Shown here: one piece after another, positions 17,884 through 37,324 of the stretch | Layout of the letters: every line of letters begins with the position of its first letter | Numbering within the stretch: position 1 is the first letter of the stretch | NCBI GenBank assembly: GCA_947501555.1 | Contig: CANMWG010000001.1 | Location: forward strand, 310,001 to 374,000 | DNA from: an uncultured Paracoccaceae bacterium | GTDB taxonomy: Bacteria; Pseudomonadota; Alphaproteobacteria; Rhodobacterales; Rhodobacteraceae | Reading direction: 5' to 3' | Length of the DNA: 64,000 nucleotides | Notes under the pieces: generated by a model | Databases searched by the model: none | Told to the model about the DNA's origin: nothing | What the model saw: only the letters and a program-made list of their open reading frames with translations | Program-made: the position numbers and the translations under genes

Positions 17884-18936
17884 CTAGTTCAGGTCGCTTG
17901 CGTATTCCGCTTCGAGTTCGGCCTCGGCCTCACCTACGGCTGTGATCAGCGCGTCAAGGATTTGATCGCCGCCGTCGACGTTGGCACGGAACCAATCCTG
18001 TACAGGCGCTGCGGCTGCAGCGAAGGCGGCCTTTTCTTCGGGTGTTGGCACATAAAGATCACCGCCACCTTCAACAAAAGCTGCGTAGGCTTCGATTGAT
18101 TTCCGCTTGGGTGATGCGAAAGTCGCCTGCTGCAACTGGCTGAACCCGTCAACCACGACGCGCCGCAGGTCTTCTGGCATCGCCATGAAGTTTTCGTTGC
18201 TCATCCACCACAGCGCACCCATGTAGGCGTGCCCGTCTAGTGTCATGTACTGAAGACCCGCATCTGGGAATTTCATGCCCATGATGTCAGTGATCCCGTT
18301 TTTGGACCCTTCAACGACGCCCGTTTGGAACGATGTGAACAGCTCAGGCCATGGGATTGGTGTTGGCGATGCACCCAAGGCGCGGACCAGTTCCTGCGGC
18401 AGATCGGCGACCACGGTACGGATTTTAAGGCCTTCCATGTCGGATGGGCTGGCCACGCGGCGTTGGGTGTTGGCAAAGTTGCGCCACCCGCCCGTGTTCC
18501 CGATGGTCATCAGCCGGATGGTGTCGCCGGATGTTTCCAACGCCATGTCACGCATCGTGCGGACGAAATCGCTGGTCAGCACGTCTTCTGCGATCCGGTC
18601 GTTGGCCATCAGATAGGGGAGGTCAAGCACCTGCACATATGGGAAGATGCCGGCTGCCCCACCTGAGGTGGAGATATAGACATCAATCGATCCCTCGGAC
18701 ACGCCTTCCAGACATTCCGCACCGGTCGCGCACAGCTGCGTGCCGATGAAGAGTTCAACCGCGATCCGTCCGTTGGATGCGGCTTCTACATAGTTTTTGA
18801 ACACAACCAGACCGTCATAGTCTTCGTCGTTTTCGTTTGAGTTCGCGGTGGCCCGGATCGTGAAATCTTGCGCCCATGCGCCCAGCGGTGTCGCCAGCAG
18901 GGCGGCGGTGGCCGCGATTTTGAGGTGGTTCAGCAT
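17884..18936 (-). CDS. TRAP transporter substrate-binding protein (DctP family)
   Basis: Signal peptide, ASNGRIAVELFIGTQL, GLKIRTV motifs; upstream dctM/dctQ. Confidence 0.9.
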   Translation of the reverse strand: MLNHLKIAATAALLATPLGAWAQDFTIRATANSNENDEDYDGLVVFKNYVEAASNGRIAVELFIGTQLCATGAECLEGVSEGSIDVYISTSGGAAGIFPYVQVLDLPYLMANDRIAEDVLTSDFVRTMRDMALETSGDTIRLMTIGNTGGWRNFANTQRRVASPSDMEGLKIRTVVADLPQELVRALGASPTPIPWPELFTSFQTGVVEGSKNGITDIMGMKFPDAGLQYMTLDGHAYMGALWWMSNENFMAMPEDLRRVVVDGFSQLQQATFASPKRKSIEAYAAFVEGGGDLYVPTPEEKAAFAAAAAPVQDWFRANVDGGDQILDALITAVGEAEAELEAEYASDLN

Positions 18937-18958
18937 AATTCTCTCCCTATTGATGCTG

Positions 18959-20530
18959 TTAATTGATGCCCGGTGCCGGGCTAATGCAAGCGCTAAACCC
19001 GATGTCCGGGGCGCAGCCCAAGAAGCCCGTCAGGTAAGGCACTGTCATGGAAATGGCGGGGATATAGGTGATCAGGAAGATCACCAAAATTTCCACCGCA
19101 AGGAATGGCAGAATAGCTTTGGCGATGGTTTCCACCTTTTCGCCCGAAACCGTACTGGCCACGAACAACACAAGCCCCATGGGCGGCGTTGCCAACCCCA
19201 CGGTCAGGTTTACGCTCATGATGATTGCGAAGTGGACAGGATGCACGCCGAGGTCCACAAAGATCGGTCCCAGGATTGGCCCAAGGATGATGATTGCTGG
19301 TCCTGCGTCAAGGAACATGCCCACGACGAAGAGTAGGAGATTGATCAGGAACAGCAACACTAGCGGGTTTTCCGACAGCGACAGGATGTAGTCTGACAGG
19401 ATTTGTGGTGCGTAGCTGAGGCTGACCACGGTTTTGAACGCGACCGCAGCCCCAACCAGTAACAGCACGGCTGAGGTGCCGAGGGCTGAACGGGTGAGGA
19501 CCTCGCCCAGGTCTTTGATTTTCATCGACCGCAGCACGAAGAAGCTGACCACCAGCGCATAGGCGACGGCGACGGCAGAGGCCTCGGTTGGGGTGAAGAC
19601 ACCCACCAGGATCCCGCCGAGGATGATGATGGGGGTTTGCAGTGGTGCCACGGCTTTTTTGCAGACCATCCGGAAGTCGTGGCTGACCCGGCCCCGGTAA
19701 CCCATCAGCATGAAGTGCGCGACGGCAAGCAGGGCCAGGAAGACGATCCACAGGTTGAGGCTGTGGATTTTGTCGCCTGCTTCGTTGATCTGAGCAAGCC
19801 CGACGGTTGTAGCCAGCCCGCTGTAGACAGCCATCAGCAACCCGGCCAGATTGATCCGGATCAGGGCGAAGCTGACCCAGTATTCGACTTGAGTGATTTC
19901 TTGGTTTTTGGTGACGATCCGTTCGGCCTTGGGCAGGTCATAGCGGTCGGCCAAGAGCCGCACCATGACCATCAGCCCAACCCCAACCATGATGCCGGGC
20001 ACGATGCCTGCAAGGAACAAGGCCGCAACGCTTTCGCCCATGACGTAGGCGTAGATGATCATGATCCCTGACGGCGGGATGATCGGCCCGATCACGGACG
20101 ATGCGGCAGTGATCGCGGCGGCGAATTTACGAGAGTAGCCGTTTTTCTCCATCGCGGGGATCAGGGTTGATCCGAGCGCGGAGGTGTCGGCCACCGCAGA
20201 GCCCGAGAGGCCTGCGAAGAGGATGGACGACAGGATGTTCACATGCGCCAGCCCGCCGCGCAGGTGGCCCATGAAGGCTTGGGAAAATTCAACCAAACGC
20301 AGGGTGATCCCACCCCGGTTCATGATTTCACCGGCCAGCATAAAGAAGGGCAGGGCCATCAGCGGGAAGCTGTCCATGCCGTTGTAAAGATTGCGATAAA
20401 GCCCAGCGACGACGTTACGCGTGTCGCCTTCGTACATGATCAGGGCGATGGGTGATGCCAGCAGGGCAAAAACCACCGGCAGCCCGATCATGATAAGGAT
20501 CAGGAAGAGCGGGAGGAATAATAACAGCAT
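18959..20530 (-). CDS. TRAP transporter large permease (DctM family)
   Basis: Polytopic; PLMALPFFMLAGEIMNRGGI, IGPIIPPSGIMIIYAYV. Confidence 0.93.
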   Translation of the reverse strand: MLLLFLPLFLILIMIGLPVVFALLASPIALIMYEGDTRNVVAGLYRNLYNGMDSFPLMALPFFMLAGEIMNRGGITLRLVEFSQAFMGHLRGGLAHVNILSSILFAGLSGSAVADTSALGSTLIPAMEKNGYSRKFAAAITAASSVIGPIIPPSGIMIIYAYVMGESVAALFLAGIVPGIMVGVGLMVMVRLLADRYDLPKAERIVTKNQEITQVEYWVSFALIRINLAGLLMAVYSGLATTVGLAQINEAGDKIHSLNLWIVFLALLAVAHFMLMGYRGRVSHDFRMVCKKAVAPLQTPIIILGGILVGVFTPTEASAVAVAYALVVSFFVLRSMKIKDLGEVLTRSALGTSAVLLLVGAAVAFKTVVSLSYAPQILSDYILSLSENPLVLLFLINLLLFVVGMFLDAGPAIIILGPILGPIFVDLGVHPVHFAIIMSVNLTVGLATPPMGLVLFVASTVSGEKVETIAKAILPFLAVEILVIFLITYIPAISMTVPYLTGFLGCAPDIGFSACISPAPGIN

Positions 20531-21126
20531 CAGTCGGCCCCCTGAAAATCATCTGCGCTGAGCGGTTTCAGTTTGTCGCCTTGCCCTGCGAGTTTGATGA
20601 TTTGCCGGATCATCAGTTCAAGGTTGACCAAGATCAGCAGGTTCACCCCGACCCATAGCGAGGCGTACTGAAAGTTGTTTTGAAATTTGTCGCCGCATTT
20701 GCCGATCTCAATCCCGAACGGCCAACGCAGGGAGGAGGAACAGCCCCGGCCTGAGAGCGTATCGACGTGGTTGTTCAGGCCGCGTTCCCACGCGATGAAC
20801 AGCACCCACATAGCGATGCACATCAACAAGAAGGTCAGCAGTCCTGAAATCAGTTTTGGCAGCGCACGTTCCAGCATGTCGATCGCCACAAACCCGCCCA
20901 TCCGGTAGGCGAGCGGCGCCATCAGCCCGGTCATCCAGAGCATGCCGAAGCGCGCGCCTTCCTCGGTCCAGTTGGGTGCGTCGTTGAGCACATAGCGGAA
21001 GAATACTTGCCCCAGGATCAGGCAAACCATGATCCCAAGCGCCGCGACCGCGATGGCCTTGCCGATTGCAAGGACCCCGGTGTTAAACCGTTCTAATGGC
21101 CACAAAAGGCCGAACAGGACCGACAT
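20530..21126 (-). CDS. TRAP transporter small permease (DctQ family)
   Basis: Short 4-TM protein with APNWTEEGARFGMLWMTGLMAPLAYRMGGFVAIDML motif, adjacent to dctM. Confidence 0.88.
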   Translation of the reverse strand: MSVLFGLLWPLERFNTGVLAIGKAIAVAALGIMVCLILGQVFFRYVLNDAPNWTEEGARFGMLWMTGLMAPLAYRMGGFVAIDMLERALPKLISGLLTFLLMCIAMWVLFIAWERGLNNHVDTLSGRGCSSSLRWPFGIEIGKCGDKFQNNFQYASLWVGVNLLILVNLELMIRQIIKLAGQGDKLKPLSADDFQGAD

Positions 21127-21205: not shown

Positions 21206-21709
21206 TCAGCCTTCTTTGAATTCCCCATATTTCCCAGCGTGGAAAACCAGCGGTTCGCCCGCGCTATGGTGTGCTTTTGTCACCCGGCCGATGATGATCA
21301 CATGGTCGCCTGCGTCATGGGTCGCTTCCAGATTGCATTCAAATGAGGCCAGCGCGCCCTCTATGATCGGCATTCCACAATGGGACAGATGCATTGGCAC
21401 GTCGCTGATCGCTGTTTTGGATCTGAGGATAGTTGCGCAGATATCGCGTTGATCGGCCCCTAGCACATGGATTGCGAACCGTCTTGAACCTGCGAAATGC
21501 TCAAACCGTTTGGATGATTTGGCCGGTGACCACAGCACCAATGGCGGGTCGAGCGAGACGCTGGCAAAGCTGTTCGCAACAATCCCAACCGGTCCTTCGG
21601 GACCGTCTGTGGTGATCACTGTCACACCGGTCGCGAAGCTGCCCAAAGCCCGTCGAAAGCCGTCGCTGTCCGTGCCGGGGTCGAACGTCTGAAGCGTGCT
21701 TGCGTCCAT
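21206..21709 (-). CDS. Flavin reductase family protein (candidate SmoA-like partner of the LLM monooxygenase)
   Basis: FRRALGSFATGVTVITTDGPEGPVGIVANSFASVSLDPPLVLWSPAKSS; 1-bp TAATG overlap with the AKR gene. Confidence 0.9.
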   Translation of the reverse strand: MDASTLQTFDPGTDSDGFRRALGSFATGVTVITTDGPEGPVGIVANSFASVSLDPPLVLWSPAKSSKRFEHFAGSRRFAIHVLGADQRDICATILRSKTAISDVPMHLSHCGMPIIEGALASFECNLEATHDAGDHVIIIGRVTKAHHSAGEPLVFHAGKYGEFKEG

Positions 21710-22599
21710 TATGGTACCTCTTGGCCGAGTGCTGCTGTATAGAGTTCGAACCAGGTTTGGCGGTCCATGTTTACTTTCAAAGCGTCAGATAGTGATTTGA
21801 TTCTGTTTATATTATTTGTCCCCATGACTGGCATGATGTTGGCAGGATGCGCGAGCAACCAAGCCACCGCCACGGCGCCGCTATCGACGCCATTGGCCTC
21901 GGCCACCGATGCCAGTGCCTTTTGCGGTGCGCCGGTACCGGTCATCAGGCTGCCGCCGCCAAGCGGCGACCAAGCCATGATCGGCACGTCCCGTTCTTGT
22001 AGGTAGGCGACATCGCCATTGGTGAACCCTTGGTGCGCTGTCAACGACAGTTCAATCTGGTTGGTGATCAGCGGCGTGTCCATCGCCGATTGCAGCAAGG
22101 TCCAATCGTGCAGTTTGAAATTGGACACACCGACGCTGCGCACTTTGCCCGAGGCGACCAGTTCGTCCAGGGCCGCGCCTGTTTCCTTGTGGTCCATCAT
22201 GGGATCTGGCCTGTGAACAAGCAGCGTGTCGATCTTGTCCACATCCATCAGCCGTAGGGAATGATCGACCGAGGCGAGGATATGCGCGCGGCTGGTGTCG
22301 TAGTATTTCACCCGTGCGTCGCTGTAACGGCCCATCGGCGCCACGATATCGCATTTGGTGACGATCTCGATCTTGTCTTTCAGGGCAGGGGCGGCCTTGA
22401 GCGCGTTGCCCAGTACTTCTTCGGCCTCATAACCGCCGTAGATGTCCGCCTGATCCATTGTGGTGATGCCTTGCTCCAGGCACGCCTCGATCTTGGCCTG
22501 GACATGGGCCGTGGATGTATCTGTGTCATCCCCAAGTCGCCACATCCCGTAAACGATGCGGCTGAAGGAAAGGTCGTCGGTAATTTGGATGCGGTTCAC
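21709..22599 (-). CDS. Aldo/keto reductase (candidate SmoB-like 6-oxo-glucose reductase)
   Basis: AKR catalytic residues in MDQADIYGGY, VTKCD, LLVHRPDP; GTG start overlapping the LLM stop by 4 bp. Confidence 0.88.
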   Translation of the reverse strand: MNRIQITDDLSFSRIVYGMWRLGDDTDTSTAHVQAKIEACLEQGITTMDQADIYGGYEAEEVLGNALKAAPALKDKIEIVTKCDIVAPMGRYSDARVKYYDTSRAHILASVDHSLRLMDVDKIDTLLVHRPDPMMDHKETGAALDELVASGKVRSVGVSNFKLHDWTLLQSAMDTPLITNQIELSLTAHQGFTNGDVAYLQERDVPIMAWSPLGGGSLMTGTGAPQKALASVAEANGVDSGAVAVAWLLAHPANIMPVMGTNNINRIKSLSDALKVNMDRQTWFELYTAALGQEVP

Positions 22600-23753
22600 T
22601 TGCGGATCCCTGTGCCAAGTGGCGTGGCTGGTGTTTCAGATGGCACACGCCCGTATTCATGGGGCAATGAGCAGGTTTTGAGCTGTGGCATAACGCGACT
22701 GCCGAAGTGTTCGGCCTCGTCTATATGCGGATAGCCTGAGAAGATGAAAGCACGGATGCCCATCTTTTGATAGGCCTCGATTTTCGTCATGATCTGGTCG
22801 GTGGACCCCACCAGTGCCGCCCCGCAGCCAGAGCGCGCCCGCCCGATGCCTGTCCAGAGCCCGGGTTCCACGTAGCCGAATTTATCGGCCAGTTCCCGTG
22901 CTTTAGCTTGGTGTGCGACGCCAAGGCTGATGCTGTCATGCGCCCGGTCCCGGATCAGTTTGCCGTATTCATCATCCAGCTTGGAGGCGATGTAGTCGGC
23001 GTATTCTTTGGCTTCCTGTTCAGTGTCGCGCACGATCATGTGGACGCGCAAGCCGTAGTCGAGCGTGCGGTTGTGGGCCTGTGCCCGTGCATGCACGTCT
23101 TGCATCCGTTGCTTCAGCTGGTCCATGGGTTCAGGCCACATCAGGTAGACGTCGCATTGCGCCCCGCAGAGTTCCAGCGCCGCAGGTGAGTAGCCGCCGA
23201 AGTAAAGCAGGGGCCCGCCATTTTGCTGGTATGGTCGGGCTGGTTCGGTAGGCACGTTCTTGAATTGGTAAATCTCGCCGTCGTGGTTGATTTCGTCCTG
23301 CGTCCAAGCTTGGCGCAGGATTTCAACAACCTCATGACTGCGTTTATACCGGTAGCTGCTTTCGGCCACTTCGCCGGGGAAGTCGCTGCTGATCACATTG
23401 AGCGTCAACCGCCCTTTGAGCATATGATCAAGTGTTGCGACGGTCCGTGCCAGCATAATCGGCTGCATTTCCCCGCAGCGTATCGCCGCCAGAAAATTCA
23501 TCCGCTCAGTCAGTGGTGCCATACCCGCGACGAAAGACAATGTGTCTTGTCCTACCTGAAAAGAAGAGGGCGCTAGGATGTTCCGGAAGCCTTGTTTTTC
23601 CGCCGTCAGGGCGATGTCGCGGCAATGCTCCCATGAGGAGCGCAAATCGCCGTCAGGGACGCCGAGGAACTGATAATCATCGGAACATAGTGCGGAAAAC
23701 CAGCTGACTTCTGCCGCATCAAGATCTGCGCTGGTGACCGGTACGATGGTCAT
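22596..23753 (-). CDS. LLM-class flavin-dependent monooxygenase, SsuD-like (candidate sulfoquinovose monooxygenase)
   Basis: SsuD-like layout: LAAIRCGEMQPIMLARTVATLDHMLKGRLTLNVISSDFPGE, LYFGGYSPAALELCGAQCDVYLMW. Confidence 0.87.
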   Translation of the reverse strand: MTIVPVTSADLDAAEVSWFSALCSDDYQFLGVPDGDLRSSWEHCRDIALTAEKQGFRNILAPSSFQVGQDTLSFVAGMAPLTERMNFLAAIRCGEMQPIMLARTVATLDHMLKGRLTLNVISSDFPGEVAESSYRYKRSHEVVEILRQAWTQDEINHDGEIYQFKNVPTEPARPYQQNGGPLLYFGGYSPAALELCGAQCDVYLMWPEPMDQLKQRMQDVHARAQAHNRTLDYGLRVHMIVRDTEQEAKEYADYIASKLDDEYGKLIRDRAHDSISLGVAHQAKARELADKFGYVEPGLWTGIGRARSGCGAALVGSTDQIMTKIEAYQKMGIRAFIFSGYPHIDEAEHFGSRVMPQLKTCSLPHEYGRVPSETPATPLGTGIRK

Positions 23754-23804: not shown

Positions 23805-23815
23805 TTGTGAAACAA
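23805..23815. promoter_or_regulatory. Candidate operator TTGTgaaACAA in the divergent LLM/GntR intergenic region
   Basis: 4-bp arm inverted repeat inside TTGTGAAACAATAGTGTATCAATTTACA; imperfect second half-site downstream. Confidence 0.3.
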
Positions 23816-23857
23816 TAGTGTATCAATTTACATGTGCTGGCCAGAGGAGGGGTCGCC

Positions 23858-24565
23858 ATGGCGAAAACCTCTGCGCTGCCCAAGTTCATTCAACTTAGCG
23901 AAATGCTGATGCGCGAGATTGCTGCGGGCCATCTGGCGGATGGGTCACGTCTGCCGCCTGAACGGGAAATGGCGGATGATTTGGGTGTGGCAGTTGGGAC
24001 CTTGCGCAAGGCGCTGGCCGATGTGGAGGCGAAGGGATTGCTCGACCGCATACAAGGGTCTGGCAACTATGTGCGTCATCGCCCGGCGGTCGATTCTGTC
24101 TATGCCTTCTTTCGGCTGGAACTGTTGAAGGGCGGTGGTTTGCCCACGGCGGAGGTTTTGTCTGTGGATCGCTTGGCCAAGCCTGACGGCTTTGCGCGCT
24201 TGGGTGGTGATCCGCAGGGGCATCGTATTCGTCGCTTGCGGTTCTTAGATGGTGTCTTGGTCGCTTTGGAGGAAATCTGGCTCGATGGTGCCCAGCGTGA
24301 TGTGATCGCTGTCAGTGATCTGTCGGAGTCGCTTTACCATTTTTATCGCCATGAATTGGGATTGGTCATCGCCGCTGTCGAGGACCGTATTGGTGTGGAT
24401 GCTTTGCCAGATTGGACACCCGACACTTTCCATCTGCCCGCAGGTCACACCACAGGCCATATCGCGCGGGTGAGCCGCACCGCCGCCAAGCAACCGGCTG
24501 AATTTTCGCGCACGTGGTACGACGCCGCGCGCGCTGCTTATATCTCTCGTATGGGAAAAGGTTAG
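23858..24565 (+). CDS. GntR-family (HutC/UTRA type) transcriptional regulator
   Basis: MREIAAGHLADGSRLPPEREMADDLGVAVGTLRKALADVEAKGLLDRIQGSGNYV wHTH and UTRA-like C-terminus. Confidence 0.9.
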   Translation: MAKTSALPKFIQLSEMLMREIAAGHLADGSRLPPEREMADDLGVAVGTLRKALADVEAKGLLDRIQGSGNYVRHRPAVDSVYAFFRLELLKGGGLPTAEVLSVDRLAKPDGFARLGGDPQGHRIRRLRFLDGVLVALEEIWLDGAQRDVIAVSDLSESLYHFYRHELGLVIAAVEDRIGVDALPDWTPDTFHLPAGHTTGHIARVSRTAAKQPAEFSRTWYDAARAAYISRMGKG

Positions 24566-24571
24566 AACAAC

Positions 24572-25660
24572 GTGGATACGGTAAACTACGGCCTGATTGG
24601 CTGCGGCATGATGGGTCGCGAACATATTCAGAATATCAATCTTCTGCCCCAAGGCCGTGTGTCTGTGGTCTATGACCCGGTGACGGAACTGGCCGAGGCC
24701 GCCGCGACTTTGGCTGAGGATGCCCATGTGGCCGGATCACTGGAAGAACTGCTCGCGTTTGACGCGCTGGATGCGGTGGTGATTGTGAGCCCCAACTACC
24801 TGCATGTGCAGCAGCTGAAACAGATTGTGGCGACCCGACCGCTGCCCATTCTGTGCGAAAAGCCGCTCTATACTGACCCAGCGGACGCCCCGGTGCTGGA
24901 TGCGCTTTTTGCGGATTACCCGCATCCGGTTTGGGTCGCCATGGAGTATCGCTATATGCCCCCTGTCGCCGCACTGATTTCGCAGGCCGAGCAGGCCACA
25001 GGTGGCATCAAGATGCTGACCATCCGCGAGCATCGCTTTCCGTTTTTGCCCAAGATTGGCGATTGGAACCGTTTCAATGCCAAAACAGGCGGGACCTTGG
25101 TTGAGAAATGCTGCCATTTCTTTGATCTGATGCGCCTGATTTTGGACGATGAACCCGTCCGCGTTATGGCCAGCGCTGGCCAGTCGTTGAACCATATGGA
25201 TGAACGCTATGAGGGCGTCGCTCCCGACATTTGGGACAATGGCTATGTTATTTTGGATTTTGCCAAAGGGTCGCGTGCCATGCTGGAGCTTTGCATGTTT
25301 GCCGAAGGTTCAAAATGGCAGGAAGAGATCAGTGCGGTGGGCCCTAAGGGCAAGATCGAGGCTTTGGTGCCTGGTCCTGGTCGGTTCTGGCCCAAGCTGT
25401 TGGGCGATCCGCCCGTGCCCCAGATGATTATCAGCCCGCGCGCGCCCAAGGGTCCTTATGTGTCAGAGATCCCTGTCGACCCCACGTTGCTGGACGCTGG
25501 TGATCACAATGGATCGACCTACTATCAACACCAGCGTTTTAACGCTGTTGTGCGGGGAGAGGGTACAGTCGAAGTAACATTGCACGATGGTGCAAAAGCG
25601 ATCGCCATGGGCCTTGCCGCGCAGGAAAGTGCGCAGACAGGCCAAGTGGTCAAGCTTTGA
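24572..25660 (+). CDS. Gfo/Idh/MocA family NAD-dependent oxidoreductase
   Basis: GLIGCGMMGREHI Rossmann motif, ILCEKPL, KCCHFFDLMRLIL; GTG start. Confidence 0.9.
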   Translation: MDTVNYGLIGCGMMGREHIQNINLLPQGRVSVVYDPVTELAEAAATLAEDAHVAGSLEELLAFDALDAVVIVSPNYLHVQQLKQIVATRPLPILCEKPLYTDPADAPVLDALFADYPHPVWVAMEYRYMPPVAALISQAEQATGGIKMLTIREHRFPFLPKIGDWNRFNAKTGGTLVEKCCHFFDLMRLILDDEPVRVMASAGQSLNHMDERYEGVAPDIWDNGYVILDFAKGSRAMLELCMFAEGSKWQEEISAVGPKGKIEALVPGPGRFWPKLLGDPPVPQMIISPRAPKGPYVSEIPVDPTLLDAGDHNGSTYYQHQRFNAVVRGEGTVEVTLHDGAKAIAMGLAAQESAQTGQVVKL

Positions 25661-26265: not shown

Positions 26266-27111
26266 CTACAGCGCGATGTAGCCCAGCCCCGCGAATGCCA
26301 AAAGACAACCACCCCATTGCAATGCCCGCATACGCTCTTTGAGGAACACCGAAGCTAACCAGATTGCAGGCAACCCGTACATTGATGTAGCCACGGCTGT
26401 ATATTGCGCATCCGGTAAATCCCCTGCCGAGACAATCGCAAGGATCGCGATGCAATCCGTCAGACCCATGACGCAGAGAACCGGGACTGCCCGTCTGTCT
26501 GGCCAGAAAGGTATTTTCCAGATCACCAGCACGCCGATGGCCACCCCTAACGTCACAGCCCGCGTTAGCATTGCCGACTGCATTTCATTGCTGACCGCCG
26601 TGAGGGCCTGTCCGAATTCGAAGGTGGCTGTAAACCCGAAGGCTGTGATCGCCGCATAGAGCATTGTCAGCCCCTTTGGTGGGATGTCGCCTTGGTCTTC
26701 ATCCGCAAAGCCCGCCACGATCCCGATCCCACAGAGGATCACCAGAACTGCCCCCCATTGCGCTGGGGTAATGTGAGTGCCCGTCACTGCCGCGAACCCC
26801 ACCGATAAGACCGAGAAACAGGCCACTATGGGTGCCGCGAGCCATAAAGGCCCTCGCTGAAATGCCGCGTAGAGCCCAAAGACCGCAACCGCAAAGGACA
26901 GCCCCGCCCCGAGGCTGAGTGCCGCGCTTTGCCCGGTCATCGCTTGCAGATTGCCCGTTGCCAGTGTGAGCCCCGACTGCAGGATCAACCCAACGAGCAG
27001 CACGACGAAGATGCAGGTTCCGATTGCGTTTTTCTGCGTGATGAACCGGACGAGGAAATCATGCACGCCCCAGGCCAATGCTGCGATCAGGCCGAGGCCA
27101 AGCGCGCTCAT
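26266..27111 (-). CDS. DMT/EamA-family transporter
   Basis: Duplicated multi-TM architecture (SALGLGLIAALAWGVHDFLVRF…); start ATG 27111. Confidence 0.8.
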   Translation of the reverse strand: MSALGLGLIAALAWGVHDFLVRFITQKNAIGTCIFVVLLVGLILQSGLTLATGNLQAMTGQSAALSLGAGLSFAVAVFGLYAAFQRGPLWLAAPIVACFSVLSVGFAAVTGTHITPAQWGAVLVILCGIGIVAGFADEDQGDIPPKGLTMLYAAITAFGFTATFEFGQALTAVSNEMQSAMLTRAVTLGVAIGVLVIWKIPFWPDRRAVPVLCVMGLTDCIAILAIVSAGDLPDAQYTAVATSMYGLPAIWLASVFLKERMRALQWGGCLLAFAGLGYIAL

Positions 27112-27272
27112 TTCCGGCGTCGAAAGAAAGGGATCATGAACACAAAGCAGGCGATCAGGAAGAAGACGCTGCCAAACATCGACCAAAAGTGCCCGATGCT
27201 AGCGATAATGAACCCGATTGCGGAAATCACGAAGAGTATCCAGCCGATGAAGTTGATTTGATCGTCAGTCAT
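27108..27272 (-). CDS. 54-aa small membrane protein absent from the ORF track
   Basis: MTDDQINFIGWILFVISAIGFIIASIGHFWSMFGSVFFLIACFVFMIPFFRRRK*; ATGA overlap with the EamA gene. Confidence 0.65.
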   Translation of the reverse strand: MTDDQINFIGWILFVISAIGFIIASIGHFWSMFGSVFFLIACFVFMIPFFRRRK

Positions 27273-29754: not shown

Positions 29755-30408
29755 CTATTTTCGTGAGAAATTCATGTCTGGTGCCACCAGCCGTTCTATG
29801 GGCCCTGTCCAGGCGTAGGCCAACAGGCAGGGATCAATGTCGCCTGTTGTGATGCGGTGTTTGCTTCCCGGTGTATTCAGGATCAACGAGCCGGGCGCGA
29901 AGACGGCTGCATTGTTTTCAGACCATGAGCCCGAAACGGAGATATAGCTTTCCTCAATCTCGGTATGGCTATGTTGCGGATAGGTGGTGGCGGGTGCAAA
30001 AAGCACAAACCCGATGATCAGATTGTCCGCATGGACCGGCCCGCGTGGGCCCAGAACTTCGCAATAGGCGTATTTCTTGATCAGTGATTTGGGCAGTTTT
30101 TCGTAGCCATAGACCCATTCCAGCTTGGGGGCGACTTCGCGCAGGGCCCGGGCCATCCCTTGCATCGCACCGCGCTCACCAAGGTCAAGGGCGCGGGGCA
30201 GATGTGCTGTGACCGGCAGGGATTGAGAGGGGTTTTCCTGGATCACGGGGTTGGATTTCATCGCGTTCGACAACCTGTCGCGCACCCGTTTGCGATGACT
30301 GCGGATCGTGGGGCTGCCCCCCGAAGAGCCCATCCGGTAGAGGGTATCAAATTCCTGCAGCAGGTATTTCCAGTTGGGATGATCCTGCAACCGGGCGGGC
30401 TCTGACAT
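29755..30408 (-). CDS. dddL: Cupin-domain DMSP lyase, DddL type
   Basis: FVLFAPATTYPQHSHTEIEESYISVSGSWSENNAAVFAPGSLILNTPGSKHRITTGDIDPCLLAYAWTG and N-terminal WKYLLQEFDTLYRMGSSGGSPTIRSHRKRVRDRLS match DddL. Confidence 0.8.
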   Translation of the reverse strand: MSEPARLQDHPNWKYLLQEFDTLYRMGSSGGSPTIRSHRKRVRDRLSNAMKSNPVIQENPSQSLPVTAHLPRALDLGERGAMQGMARALREVAPKLEWVYGYEKLPKSLIKKYAYCEVLGPRGPVHADNLIIGFVLFAPATTYPQHSHTEIEESYISVSGSWSENNAAVFAPGSLILNTPGSKHRITTGDIDPCLLAYAWTGPIERLVAPDMNFSRK

Positions 30409-32434: not shown

Positions 32435-33769
32435 CTAGTTCTGCAAATAGACCTCGAGGCTATCATCCAGCGCGTCTTTCCAGGGCGTATGGTGTTTGGG
32501 TGCCATGGTGCCGGTGATCACGGATTTATAGCCGTTGTCCCGGAACGTCATGATCCCTTTCTTCTTGTGTCCTTTCCATTCCTTGAAGGCTTTGCAGGCC
32601 CCTTCGACGTCGAAGCTAGGATAGTCTGTTTCATCGATCAGCTCTTTGACGTAGTCGCCCTGGTACCAGATTGCATCGTAGTCGTCCTCGCCCGCGTCTT
32701 CCCGCGCTACGCGGTCGGTGACGTCGGCGGCCATTGTTGCCGCATCGGGCAGGTTGATCCGCCCCATGATCACGTCACGTGCCCACCAGGCCTGCGCGTC
32801 GAACATATTGAATGTGAACCATTGGTCCTGCATTCCGATGTAGAACAGATCCGGATCGCCCAGATAGGCCACGCCTTTATAGAGGTCCGCTGTGGCCAGC
32901 CGGTTGGCTGTCTTGAGCTTGAGGCTGTCGGGCAGGAAGGGGAAGTGATGTTTGTACCCGGTGCAGAGGATCACAGCGTCAATGTCTTTGCTGGTTCCGT
33001 CCTTGAAGTAGGCGGTATTCCCGTCAACTTTTGTCAACAGCGGGACTTCGGCCCAGTTGTCGGGCCAGTCGTACCCCATGGCTGCTGTCCGGTGGCTGAC
33101 CGTGATCGATTTGGCCCCGTATTTCCAGCATTGTGAGCCGATGTCTTCGGCCGAATAGGATGTGCCGACGATCAGGATATCCTTATCCTTAAACTCAAGC
33201 GCGTCTCGGAAGTCATGCGCGTGCAGGACCCGCCCTTTAAAGCTGTCGAACCCTTCGAAATAAGGCACGTTCGGTGTGCTGAAGTGGCCGGTGCAGACGA
33301 TGACGTGGTCGAAGTCTTCTGTATAGGTCCGGTCATTGGGCAGATCGGTCACCGTGACTTTGAATTTGCCCTCTTCTTTTTCGACCCAACGCACAGCTGT
33401 TGAGAACCGGATCCAATCCCGCACCCCTGCTTTTTCGACCCGTCCTTGGATATAATCAAAGAGCACCGCCCGCGGTGGGTAGCTGGCGATTTGTTTGCCG
33501 AAGTGTTCCTCAAAGGAGTAATCCGCGAATTCTAGCCCTTCTTTGGGTCCGTTCGACCACAGGTAGCGATACATGGACCCGTGCACTGGTTCGCCGTATT
33601 CATCGAGCCCCGTCCGCCATGTGTATTTCCAAAGCCCCCCCCAATCGGATTGCTTTTCAAAGCAGACGATTTCGGGGATGTCCGCGCCTTTGGCTTGTGC
33701 GGATTGAAAGGCCCGCAACTGGGCGAGCCCTGAGGGCCCCGCACCAAGGACAGCAATGCGTTTTGACAT
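32435..33769 (-). CDS. tmm: Trimethylamine monooxygenase (class B FMO family)
   Basis: GAGPSG FAD site, FMO motif [16 protein letters not shown] site [19 protein letters not shown]; sequence reads as marine bacterial Tmm; methylamine context. Confidence 0.9.
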
Positions 33770-33827
33770 GGGATTCTCCTGATCTTTTGTTGCCAGTATT
33801 GCAGGGTAAATATCACCAAAGGTCAAT

Positions 33828-33850
33828 AATTATTCTTGATGTGAATAATT
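33828..33850. promoter_or_regulatory. Palindrome AATTATTC-ttgatgt-GAATAATT upstream of tmm
   Basis: Perfect 8-bp arms between the eutC stop and tmm start; related sequence TTATTCTTATCGTTAAATAA at 27311-27330 upstream of tdm. Confidence 0.5.
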
Positions 33851-33851
33851 T

Positions 33852-34610
33852 TCAGGCGGGGCTTGGATCATCGGGTGCTTTCAACGCGGCCCGTCGCTGG
33901 TTCATTTCCACGCCGCTGCATCCAAGTTGCCGCATGGTTTGGATCAGCGCCGCCGTTTGTCGCGCGGCTTCGGTGATTGGCAGCCCTTGTTCGCGCACGT
34001 TGGACAGGCAATGGCGTGCGCTGTCGGGGGTTTGCTCGCTTGGGTTTTGCGTAATGTAGACCCCAAGCCCGTCCGCTGCGGATAGCCCCGGCCGCTCGCC
34101 CAGCACCATGACAACGGTTTGCGCCCCCATCGCACGGGCGATCCCATCACCCAAGGCCACCCGTGCCTGTTGGGCCAAGATTACAGGCGAGACCGTCAGC
34201 CCGGATTGCGTCAGCATTGGCGCGAGGGCCGCCATGAACGCCACCCCGTTGAGCGTGACTGCCACTGCAGACAGCCCATCGCCCAAGACCAGCCCCACAT
34301 CGGGTGCGGGGTCTTGCGCGAGCCCTGCAATTTGATCTGCGGGCAGTTGCCGCCCCAGATCGGGCCTGCGGACGAACTCATCGCGGTGCGTTGCGGCACT
34401 TTGCACCCGGTAGTGCGGCAGGTTTACTGCATCGAGCGCGGTGCTTAGCTCGGCGACATCGATGTCCGAGGTTACCGCTTCGCGTGCCCTTGCGTGATCG
34501 AGCGCGAAGTTCAGTGTTGTTGCCGTGTCTTGTGCTGCGACCCTTTGGCCGAAGGTCAGCCGGGCTTGTGTGATGGCGGCGATGGTTTTGCGTGTCGTCA
34601 GATCTGTCAT
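33852..34610 (-). CDS. eutC: Ethanolamine ammonia-lyase small subunit
   Basis: DVGLVLGDGLSAVAV, VVMVLGERPGLSAADGLGVYIT; follows eutB with ATGA overlap. Confidence 0.93.
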   Translation of the reverse strand: MTDLTTRKTIAAITQARLTFGQRVAAQDTATTLNFALDHARAREAVTSDIDVAELSTALDAVNLPHYRVQSAATHRDEFVRRPDLGRQLPADQIAGLAQDPAPDVGLVLGDGLSAVAVTLNGVAFMAALAPMLTQSGLTVSPVILAQQARVALGDGIARAMGAQTVVMVLGERPGLSAADGLGVYITQNPSEQTPDSARHCLSNVREQGLPITEAARQTAALIQTMRQLGCSGVEMNQRRAALKAPDDPSPA

Positions 34611-35983
34611 GCCGCAGGCAATCGCAGCTGGCCGAGCACTTGCTCAATCTGGGGCAGCTGTACGTCGGCTGTGCCCACGCCCATGTCTTCCATCCATTTG
34701 GCGAACTCGGGGGCAGGGGGTCGCTGCAGCGTGTTTCGAATAAAGCCTGCGTCTTGGTAGGACAGGCTTTGGTAGTTCAGCATGATATCATCCGCCCCGG
34801 GCACGGTGATGACAAAGCTGACCCCGGCGGCGCAAAGGACCGTAAGCAGAAGGTCCATATCGTCTTGATCGGCGTAGGAATGGTTGGTGTAGCAAACGTC
34901 TACCCCCATCGGCAGGCCAAGCAGTTTACCGCAAAAATGATCTTCAAGCCCGGCGCGGATGATCTCTTTTCCGTCGGCCAGATATTCGGGCCCGATGAAC
35001 CCCACAACTGTGTTGACCAGCAGAGGGTTGTACTGCCGTGCGACCGCGTAGGCGCGGGTTTCTATGGTTTGCTGGTCCATGCCATGGTGCGCCTCGGCCG
35101 AGAGTGCCGCCCCCTGGCCGGTCTCAAAATACATCAGGTTGCTGCCTTCAGGTGCACGCCCTAATCCGCGGACGGCCTGATGCGCCTCTTCCAGCATAGG
35201 TAGCGTCACCCCAAAGCCTGCATTGGCCTTTTGTGATCCGGCGACCGATTGGAAGACAAGATCGACAGGGGCGTTTTGTTCCATTGCTGCGAGTGCGGTG
35301 CTGACATGACCCAGCAGGCAATGCTGCGTGGGGATGTTCAGTTGGGTCCGGATGACCTCAAGCACCTCGCAGATGCGGATGTAGTCGGGCACTGTATCTG
35401 TGGCGGGGTTCACCCCGATCACAGCGTCGCCCGTCCCCATCAACAACCCATCGATGGCCGAGAGGGCGATCCCCCGGCTATCATCGGACGGGTGATTGGG
35501 CTGGTTGCGCGTCGACACATGCCCGCGCAGCCCGATGGTGTTGCGAAAGCGCGTGATGACTTCGATCTTGGCCGCCACGGCGATCAGGTCTTGGTTGCGC
35601 ATGATCTTGCTGACGGCGGCGACCATTTCAGGGGTCAGCCCGAAGCGGATGGCGTGCAGTGTGTCTCCGGTTACTGCCGGATCAAGCAGCCAACCCCGCA
35701 GCCCCCCGACGGTTAGGTGTGACACCGGCGCGAAGGCAACCGCATCATGTTGCGCGAAAATCAGCTCGGTGACGTCATCGCCGTCAACCTCAAGCACATC
35801 ATCCAGAAAGGCCTGCAGTGGCAGGTCCGCCAGACAGTACTGTGCGGCGATCCGCTCAACTGGGCCGCTGGCGGCTAGACCCGCCAAGGCGTCGCCCGAC
35901 CGATGCGGTGTGGCGTGTGCCAGTAGCACTTTGAGAGAGGGCCAGGCGAAACGCTGCCCGCCGATGTCAGCGCGCAGCTTCAT
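34607..35983 (-). CDS. eutB: Ethanolamine ammonia-lyase large subunit
   Basis: ADLPLQAFLDDVLEVDGDDVTELIF, GTGDAVIGVNPATDTV, FETGQGAALSAEAHHGMDQQT, GMDVCYTNH-like motifs. Confidence 0.95.
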   Translation of the reverse strand: MKLRADIGGQRFAWPSLKVLLAHATPHRSGDALAGLAASGPVERIAAQYCLADLPLQAFLDDVLEVDGDDVTELIFAQHDAVAFAPVSHLTVGGLRGWLLDPAVTGDTLHAIRFGLTPEMVAAVSKIMRNQDLIAVAAKIEVITRFRNTIGLRGHVSTRNQPNHPSDDSRGIALSAIDGLLMGTGDAVIGVNPATDTVPDYIRICEVLEVIRTQLNIPTQHCLLGHVSTALAAMEQNAPVDLVFQSVAGSQKANAGFGVTLPMLEEAHQAVRGLGRAPEGSNLMYFETGQGAALSAEAHHGMDQQTIETRAYAVARQYNPLLVNTVVGFIGPEYLADGKEIIRAGLEDHFCGKLLGLPMGVDVCYTNHSYADQDDMDLLLTVLCAAGVSFVITVPGADDIMLNYQSLSYQDAGFIRNTLQRPPAPEFAKWMEDMGVGTADVQLPQIEQVLGQLRLPAA

Positions 35984-35998
35984 TGCCGGGGCCTTGGG

Positions 35999-37324
35999 TC
36001 AGATGTCGAGCGCATTGTCCTTTTCCCATTGGCTGAAATGCTGCACGAAACTATCCCATTCCTGCAGCTTCATTTTGACGTAAGAGGCCGAGAATTCAGC
36101 ACCCATGGCCGTCTTCAATGCCTTATCTTTATCGAATTCGCGTATCGCATCCAGCATATTCAACGGCAGTTTTGGCGCACCGCGCACTTTGTGGCCTTCG
36201 GCGTACATGTCGATGTCGTAGCGCTTGCCCGGATCTGCCTGCGACTTGATCCCCGACAGGCCAGTCGCGATTATGACCGCTTGCAGCAGATAGGGGTTCA
36301 CCGCCCCGTCAGGCAGGCGCAATTCGAACCGTCCGGGCCCAGGGACACGCACCATATGCGTGCGGTTGTTGCCAGTCCATGTGACCGTGTTGGGGGCCCA
36401 AGTGGCACCAGATGTGGTGCGCGGCGCGTTGATCCGTTTGTAGCTGTTCACCGTGGGGTTGGTGATCGCGGCTAAGGCGCTGGCGTGTTTCATGATGCCA
36501 CCCAAGAAATAGCGCCCTTGGTCAGACAGCCCCAGTTCTTTGGTCTGGCTGCTGTCGTCAGGGTCGGTCGCGAAGACATTTGTTTTGCCGTCCATATCCC
36601 AGACCGAGATATGGGCGTGGCAGCCGTTACCTGTCAGGCCTTCAATCGGTTTGGGCATGAATGTCGCCCGGAAGCCGTGCTTTTCGGCCACGGATTTTGT
36701 CATGAATTTGAAGAAGGAATGTTTGTCTGCCGTCTTTAGTGCATCATCGAATTCCCAGTTCATTTCGAACTGCCCATTCGCGTCTTCGTGGTCGTTTTGG
36801 TAGGGGCCCCAGCCGAGTTCCAGCATGTAATCGCAAATTTCGCGTACCACATCATAGCGCCGCATTACGGCTTGCTGGTCGTAGCAAGGCTTAGCGGCGG
36901 TATCGAATTCATCGCTGATTTGGCTGCCGTCGGGCGTCAGCAGAAAATATTCCGCCTCAATCCCCGTTTTGACGCGCAGCCCTTCTGCGGCGGCCTCATC
37001 GATTAGTTTGCGCAAGACGTTGCGGGGCGCTTGGGCCACGTCTTCGCCTTCCATCACGCAGTTGCCTGCGACCCATGCGACCTCGGGTTTCCAGGGCAGT
37101 TGGATCACCGACGATGGGTCCGGTACGGCCAGCATATCGGGATGCGCGGGGGTCATATCCAGATAGGTTGCGAAACCGGCAAAACCTGCGCCGTCTTCCT
37201 GCATGTCTGCGATGGCTTGCGCGGGCACCAGTTTCGCCCGTTGCCCGCCGAACAGGTCGGTGAAGCTAATCATGAAGTATTTGACGCCATTATCGGCGGC
37301 GAATTTGGCAAGATCTGTCGTCAT
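35999..37324 (-). CDS. gmaS: Gamma-glutamylmethylamide synthetase (glutamine-synthetase-like)
   Basis: GS fold motifs IEAEYFLL, NGCHAHISVWD, VPGPGRFELRLPDGAVNPYLLQA; adjacent to mgsCBA. Confidence 0.9.
   Translation of the reverse strand: MTTDLAKFAADNGVKYFMISFTDLFGGQRAKLVPAQAIADMQEDGAGFAGFATYLDMTPAHPDMLAVPDPSSVIQLPWKPEVAWVAGNCVMEGEDVAQAPRNVLRKLIDEAAAEGLRVKTGIEAEYFLLTPDGSQISDEFDTAAKPCYDQQAVMRRYDVVREICDYMLELGWGPYQNDHEDANGQFEMNWEFDDALKTADKHSFFKFMTKSVAEKHGFRATFMPKPIEGLTGNGCHAHISVWDMDGKTNVFATDPDDSSQTKELGLSDQGRYFLGGIMKHASALAAITNPTVNSYKRINAPRTTSGATWAPNTVTWTGNNRTHMVRVPGPGRFELRLPDGAVNPYLLQAVIIATGLSGIKSQADPGKRYDIDMYAEGHKVRGAPKLPLNMLDAIREFDKDKALKTAMGAEFSASYVKMKLQEWDSFVQHFSQWEKDNALDI

Follow-up and report, generated by a model that had tools for sequence, protein, structure and literature searches.

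A predicted GH188 NAD+-dependent sulfoquinovosidase beside a sulfo-SMO operon in a Paracoccaceae bacterium, with a candidate sulfoquinovose regulon

Sulfoquinovose, a sulfosugar of plants and algae, is produced in an amount estimated at 10 billion tons a year, for the most part in glycosidic form (PMC10755693). A marine bacterium's access to the sugar therefore depends on whether it has a sulfoquinovosidase (SQase). This raises a question about a 64,000-nucleotide stretch of DNA from an uncultured Paracoccaceae bacterium (hereafter, the window), in which a gene of the Gfo/Idh/MocA superfamily lies beside a sulfo-SMO operon: does its product release sulfoquinovose, and which other genes are controlled along with it? 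An original prediction had proposed that the gene encodes a GH188-like NAD+-dependent SQase. PDB sequence matches, active-site residues, phylogeny, and a modeled structure all support that proposal, and the product of positions 24572-25660 (forward strand) is very probably a cytosolic GH188 NAD+-dependent SQase tied to the sulfo-SMO operon.

The sqgA-like gene has a GTG start and encodes 362 amino acids. The open reading frame contains the GCGMMGREH, CEKPL, and KCCHFFD motifs from which the original prediction took the protein to be a Gfo/Idh/MocA member, and Pfam agrees, with both the N- and C-terminal GFO_IDH_MocA domains above cut-off. A phmmer search against the PDB matched the protein over its whole length to 8zn9 (E 9e-153, 63-64% identity), the PDB title of which names a marine sulfoquinovosidase, and at an E of about 1e-114 to FlSqgA (8qc2, 52% identity) and ArSqgA (8qc3, 53% identity). 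Only GH188 SQases matched better than E 1e-16; the first match outside the family was an inositol dehydrogenase (E 6e-16). An AlphaFold model (pLDDT 94, pTM 0.92) was superposed on NAD+-dependent SQase structures, as had been suggested at the outset. Foldseek gave TM scores of 0.96-0.97 and an rmsd of 1.1-1.5 Å to 8zn9, 8qc2, and 8qc6 (for 8zn9 alone, 0.97 and 1.1 Å), versus TM scores of about 0.75-0.82 and an rmsd of 3.5-6.6 Å to non-GH188 relatives. The 8qc entries contain NAD+, and some also contain sulfoquinovose.

The protein shares its fold and its NAD+-binding Rossmann domain with characterized GH188 enzymes, along with their catalytic residues and sulfonate-binding triad. Kaur et al. 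(2023, PMC10755693) assigned Lys107, Tyr136, Glu189, His193, and His321 of ArSqgA to the sugar site and Arg166, Leu170, and Lys172 to the sulfonate site. A single numbering offset fits all eight published positions to the PDB sequence, and all eight mappable catalytic or sulfonate residues are identical in the 362-residue protein, where the sugar-site residues are K97, Y126, E178, H182, and H312. The sulfonate triad, whose absence was to have counted against the original prediction, is present as R155, L159, and K161. A further residue, E153, aligns with the glutamate at ArSqgA position 164 by the same numbering; the ArSqgA counterpart of GH109 Tyr226 is printed as Glu163 (PMC10755693), apparently a misprint or a numbering error. 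K97, Y126, E153, R155, L159, K161, E178, H182, and H312 are invariant across 111 GH188-like sequences, and none of seven Gfo/Idh/MocA paralogues carries the full set of nine. Published family frequencies are 98.3% for R166, 96.0% for L170, and 96.7% for K172 (Backlund and Higgins, PMC11465081), and the protein has the common Leu type of sulfonate site rather than the Tyr variant.

Immediately upstream of the GH188 gene, on the forward strand, is a gene for a regulator with Pfam GntR and UTRA domains (23858-24565). Its start is probably the ATG at 23858, which has a GAGGAGG ribosome-binding site just upstream, while the mechanical open reading frame begins at a GTG at 23834; only 6 bases separate its stop from the GTG of the GH188 gene. 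Divergent from this pair, on the reverse strand, runs smoC-smoB-smoA-dctQ-dctM-dctP. The 385-residue product of 22596-23753 resembles an FMNH2-dependent, luciferase-like sulfoquinovose monooxygenase, with full-length phmmer matches to 7olf (E 4e-226) and 7oh2 (E 1e-218) and the next family following at E 7e-59 (7jv3). The product of 21709-22599, an aldo-keto reductase resembling the 6-dehydroglucose reductase SmoB, matches 7bby/7bbz at an E of about 1e-129, with the next match at about 1e-61. We take 7olf/7oh2 and 7bby/7bbz to be the Agrobacterium/Rhizobium SmoC and SmoB, respectively, of Sharma et al. 2022; their PDB molecule names are generic. The gene at 21206-21709 encodes a SmoA-like flavin reductase (Pfam Flavin_Reduct, E 2e-38). 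SmoB and SmoC together have been treated as enough to call sulfo-SMO (PMC13372026), and here SmoA, SmoB, and SmoC are encoded together at 21206-23753, so that the SmoABC-like operon previously proposed is indeed in place. Beyond it, at 17884-21126, Pfam identifies a TRAP transporter made up of the small permease DctQ (20530-21126), the large permease DctM (18959-20530), and the solute-binding protein DctP (17884-18936), a predicted receptor for sulfoquinovose or sulfoquinovosyl glycerol.

Comparison of 80 named loci defined a conserved module in which the regulator gene adjoins the GH188 gene in 79 loci, and SmoC, SmoB, and SmoA are encoded in 79, 79, and 77, respectively. Since gene order is kept across these loci, the arrangement is not due to chance. 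TRAP genes adjoin smoA in 54-55 of the 80, and some relatives carry ABC genes at the smo locus. The same comparison excluded from the module an EamA-family permease gene just downstream of the GH188 gene (26266-27186).

The original prediction had also stated that no other glycosidase was visible. For GH31, this extends to the whole genome (99.6% complete), in which the catalytic domain PF01055 was not found; the control search worked, being positive in 6 of 14 known genomes. Judged by its named relatives, the genome belongs among roseobacters of the Yoonia/Loktanella group. Across 37 genomes of the genus, 31 carry both GH188 and SmoC and 5 carry neither, counts uncorrected for shared ancestry; in the one remaining genome, the GH188 gene is truncated by a contig end. 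According to PMC10755693, GH188 is near-universal in marine roseobacter sulfo-SMO clusters, which are without GH31. The gene studied here is thus already explained by the 2023 literature; it confirms a known, recently described family in a known setting and is not a new kind of enzyme.

Several loci depart from the common arrangement. In one genome, the GH188 gene is interrupted at residue 202, leaving two frames in an otherwise intact cluster (G017:C2:487331-488411), the result of a frameshift or a sequencing error. In a metagenome-assembled genome (L144:8141-10375), smoB lies directly beside the GH188 gene, and smoC, gntR, and the operator described below are missing, through deletion or assembly error. 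Neorhizobium (L122) and Rhizobium (L143) loci combine smoC-gntR-GH188 with ABC genes and are without clear adjoining smoA or smoB orthologues. Also, three genomes of the same genus (G023, G008, and G031; loci L046, L047, and L048, respectively) have a GH188/smo cluster that is only 61-63% identical, and in L046, ABC importer genes adjoin smoA. The two of these represented in the tree, L046 and L048, fall in another subclade, nearest to Pacificibacter, and the cluster may therefore have been replaced by horizontal transfer.

By analogy with the published mechanism of the GH188 family, the enzyme would begin by transferring a hydride from C3 of a sulfoquinovoside to bound NAD+, with the C3 hydroxyl held by K97 and H182 and the sulfonate by R155 and K161 together with the L159 backbone. 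Y126 or E153 would then abstract the acidified C2 proton, the aglycone would depart from C1 with the aid of H312, and water would be added. Finally, NADH would return the hydride to C3, so that, overall, a sulfoquinovoside of alpha or beta configuration, for example sulfoquinovosyl glycerol, would be hydrolyzed. SmoC and SmoA would desulfonate the freed sulfoquinovose, yielding sulfite and 6-dehydroglucose, which SmoB would reduce to glucose; the substrate would enter through the adjoining TRAP transporter, and the GntR protein would regulate the system through an ATCAAT operator. In one respect, the original prediction needs correction. It had included Mn2+ in the assay, and the characterized GH188 enzyme is metal independent, being merely stabilized by Mn2+ (PMC10755693).

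Other readings of the protein were also weighed. An ordinary sugar or inositol dehydrogenase that merely adjoins the SMO operon would share the superfamily and its fold (TM about 0.8 for inositol dehydrogenase), and the top curated NCBIfam model for the protein is in fact the inositol 2-dehydrogenase IolG. Nevertheless, the protein scores 102.5 bits against that equivalog's cut-off of 355, and in structure comparisons its identity to non-GH188 dehydrogenases is about 16-24%, versus 48-63% to GH188 enzymes. The paralogues also lack the Y126, R155, K161, E178, and H312 set, and phylogeny, which the original prediction had named among its possible refuters, sets them apart: a branch with support of 99/97 separates the query, FlSqgA, ArSqgA, 8zn9, and 28 homologues from the seven Gfo/Idh/MocA paralogues (three of them encoded in the genome under study). 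An inositol dehydrogenase identity is rejected on the missed IolG cut-off, the residue set, and the tree, and the broader dehydrogenase reading is very improbable. Least likely of all is assignment to a different NAD+-dependent glycosidase family, be it GH109 or another, to which we give next to no chance. GH109 has the superfamily fold and related chemistry (PMC10755693), but no GH109 chain is among the sequence matches in the PDB (E below 0.001), the GH109 active-site tyrosine is replaced by glutamate, and the sulfonate loop carries GH188 residues; the GH109 identity is rejected on these grounds.

A subtler alternative grants the GH188 fold and changes the reaction, so that the protein would act on another sulfonated glycoside or would be a sulfoquinovose 3-dehydrogenase rather than the SQase of the pathway. 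Since C3 oxidation opens the mechanism, loss of a later step would yield a dehydrogenase, and roseobacters were initially proposed to use free sulfoquinovose only (as stated in PMC10755693). Against this, every catalytic residue is retained, co-occurrence with SmoC is strict, and the closest solved relative, 8zn9, was deposited as a marine sulfoquinovosidase. We therefore regard this alternative as improbable and retain the pathway SQase, whose catalytic activity is predicted from characterized homologues and whose natural aglycone could differ from the presumed one.

How the locus is controlled is suggested by the smoC-gntR divergent intergenic region. Between the two start codons, at 23806-23829 (no strand assigned), lies a predicted operator, TGTGAAACAATAGTGTATCAATTT, with two ATCAAT-like half-sites 11 bp apart. 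ATCAAT is found in all 79 aligned smoC-gntR intergenic regions, nearly always with a second half-site 11 bp upstream. The pattern TATCAATT occurs in 66 of the 79, compared with 0.28 expected after shuffling, a contrast whose significance is overstated because the regions come from related sequences. A weight matrix built from the sites scores 39.5 at 23806-23829, the next best score in the window being 3.9, and in a 2.1-Mb control of reversed DNA it matched nothing at a score of at least 12. In Rhabdonatronobacter (L116), a relocated smoC is preceded, at about 70-90 bp, by a site of its own, and no operator site is present at two distant GH188 loci (L051 and L052) where the GntR protein has no match. 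Matches to a one-mismatch pattern in two other genomes (G012 contig C3 and G004 contig C2; L150 and L151) are not claimed; a differently mismatched half-site is common to both. The GntR protein is the likely ligand of the ATCAAT operator.

Might the TRAP genes be incidental neighbors of smo? This was tested with four genomes in which dctQMP orthologues (64-90% identity) lie away from smo, and the idea was rejected, as all four unlinked operons keep the operator, roughly 180-300 bp upstream with scores of 26.9-36.1 (L165:1812, L166:1879, L167:1846, and L168:1471). Sites at these operons and at the moved smoC of L116 mean that the regulon link does not depend on adjacency alone. A DctP orthologue is present in 26 of 32 GH188-positive genomes versus 0 of 5 GH188-negative genomes (p 0.001 without phylogenetic correction). 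Also, the genome under study has a second exact copy of the operator (contig C1, 1181649-1181665; L146:6650-6666) upstream of an EamA/DMT permease gene at 1180523-1181380 of that contig, and the same position is occupied by a site in 9 of 13 EamA orthologues (scores of 12.6-38.0). Of the four without one, one belongs to a genome that has no smo cluster (G005), and three belong to genomes with a diverged cluster and no adjoining TRAP genes.

We propose with reasonable confidence that the GntR protein beside the GH188 gene governs a wider sulfoquinovose regulon via a tandem ATCAAT operator, AHCAATNNTGTATCAAT, and that this regulon takes in TRAP DctPQM, as importer of sulfoquinovose or sulfoquinovosyl glycerol, and, in some members of the genus including the one studied here, the EamA permease encoded elsewhere. 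Transport of either compound by the TRAP system is suggested by its operator and gene context, as would be any role for the EamA protein. A survey of the open literature by titles and abstracts found no paper on a sulfoquinovose regulon with a TRAP (tripartite) transporter or a GntR regulator; it is uncertain whether the TRAP assignment is new.

The presence of GH188 predicts that the strain would grow on sulfoquinovosyl glycerol and not on free sulfoquinovose alone. The operator, in turn, is a usable marker for transporters and other regulon genes that are remote from smo; in most relatives examined, it suggests import by a TRAP system and not by an ABC one. Elsewhere in the window, about 4 kb from the SQase gene, a cupin DMSP lyase is encoded at 29755-30408 on the reverse strand (PF16867, E 3e-48), which places two algal organosulfur functions close together. 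The same strand at 32435-37324 encodes a trimethylamine monooxygenase (NF058570, above cut-off), the EutB large subunit of ethanolamine ammonia-lyase, and a type III glutamine synthetase.

Among known systems, FlSqgA from Flavobacterium sp. K172 and ArSqgA from Arthrobacter sp. U41 (GH188; Kaur et al. 2023, PMC10755693) resemble the protein in fold, catalytic residues, and sulfonate triad. GH188 was discovered via Arthrobacter sulfo-EMP clusters (PMC10755693), whereas the partner pathway here is sulfo-SMO. The marine enzyme 8zn9, deposited under the title "A vast marine sulfonate-based carbon cycle fueled by novel sulfoquinovosidases," is identical to the query at the nine tested active-site residues but belongs to a different subclade of the tree, one of roseobacter and Stappiaceae sequences. 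Agrobacterium smoABCDEFGHI is like the locus in having SmoA, SmoB, SmoC, and a regulator. That cluster reportedly has SmoI, an SQase of family GH31, as its glycosidase and the ABC system SmoEFGH for import. At the locus described here, the place of SmoI is taken by a GH188 gene, and instead of SmoEFGH, it is the TRAP transporter DctPQM that adjoins smoA.
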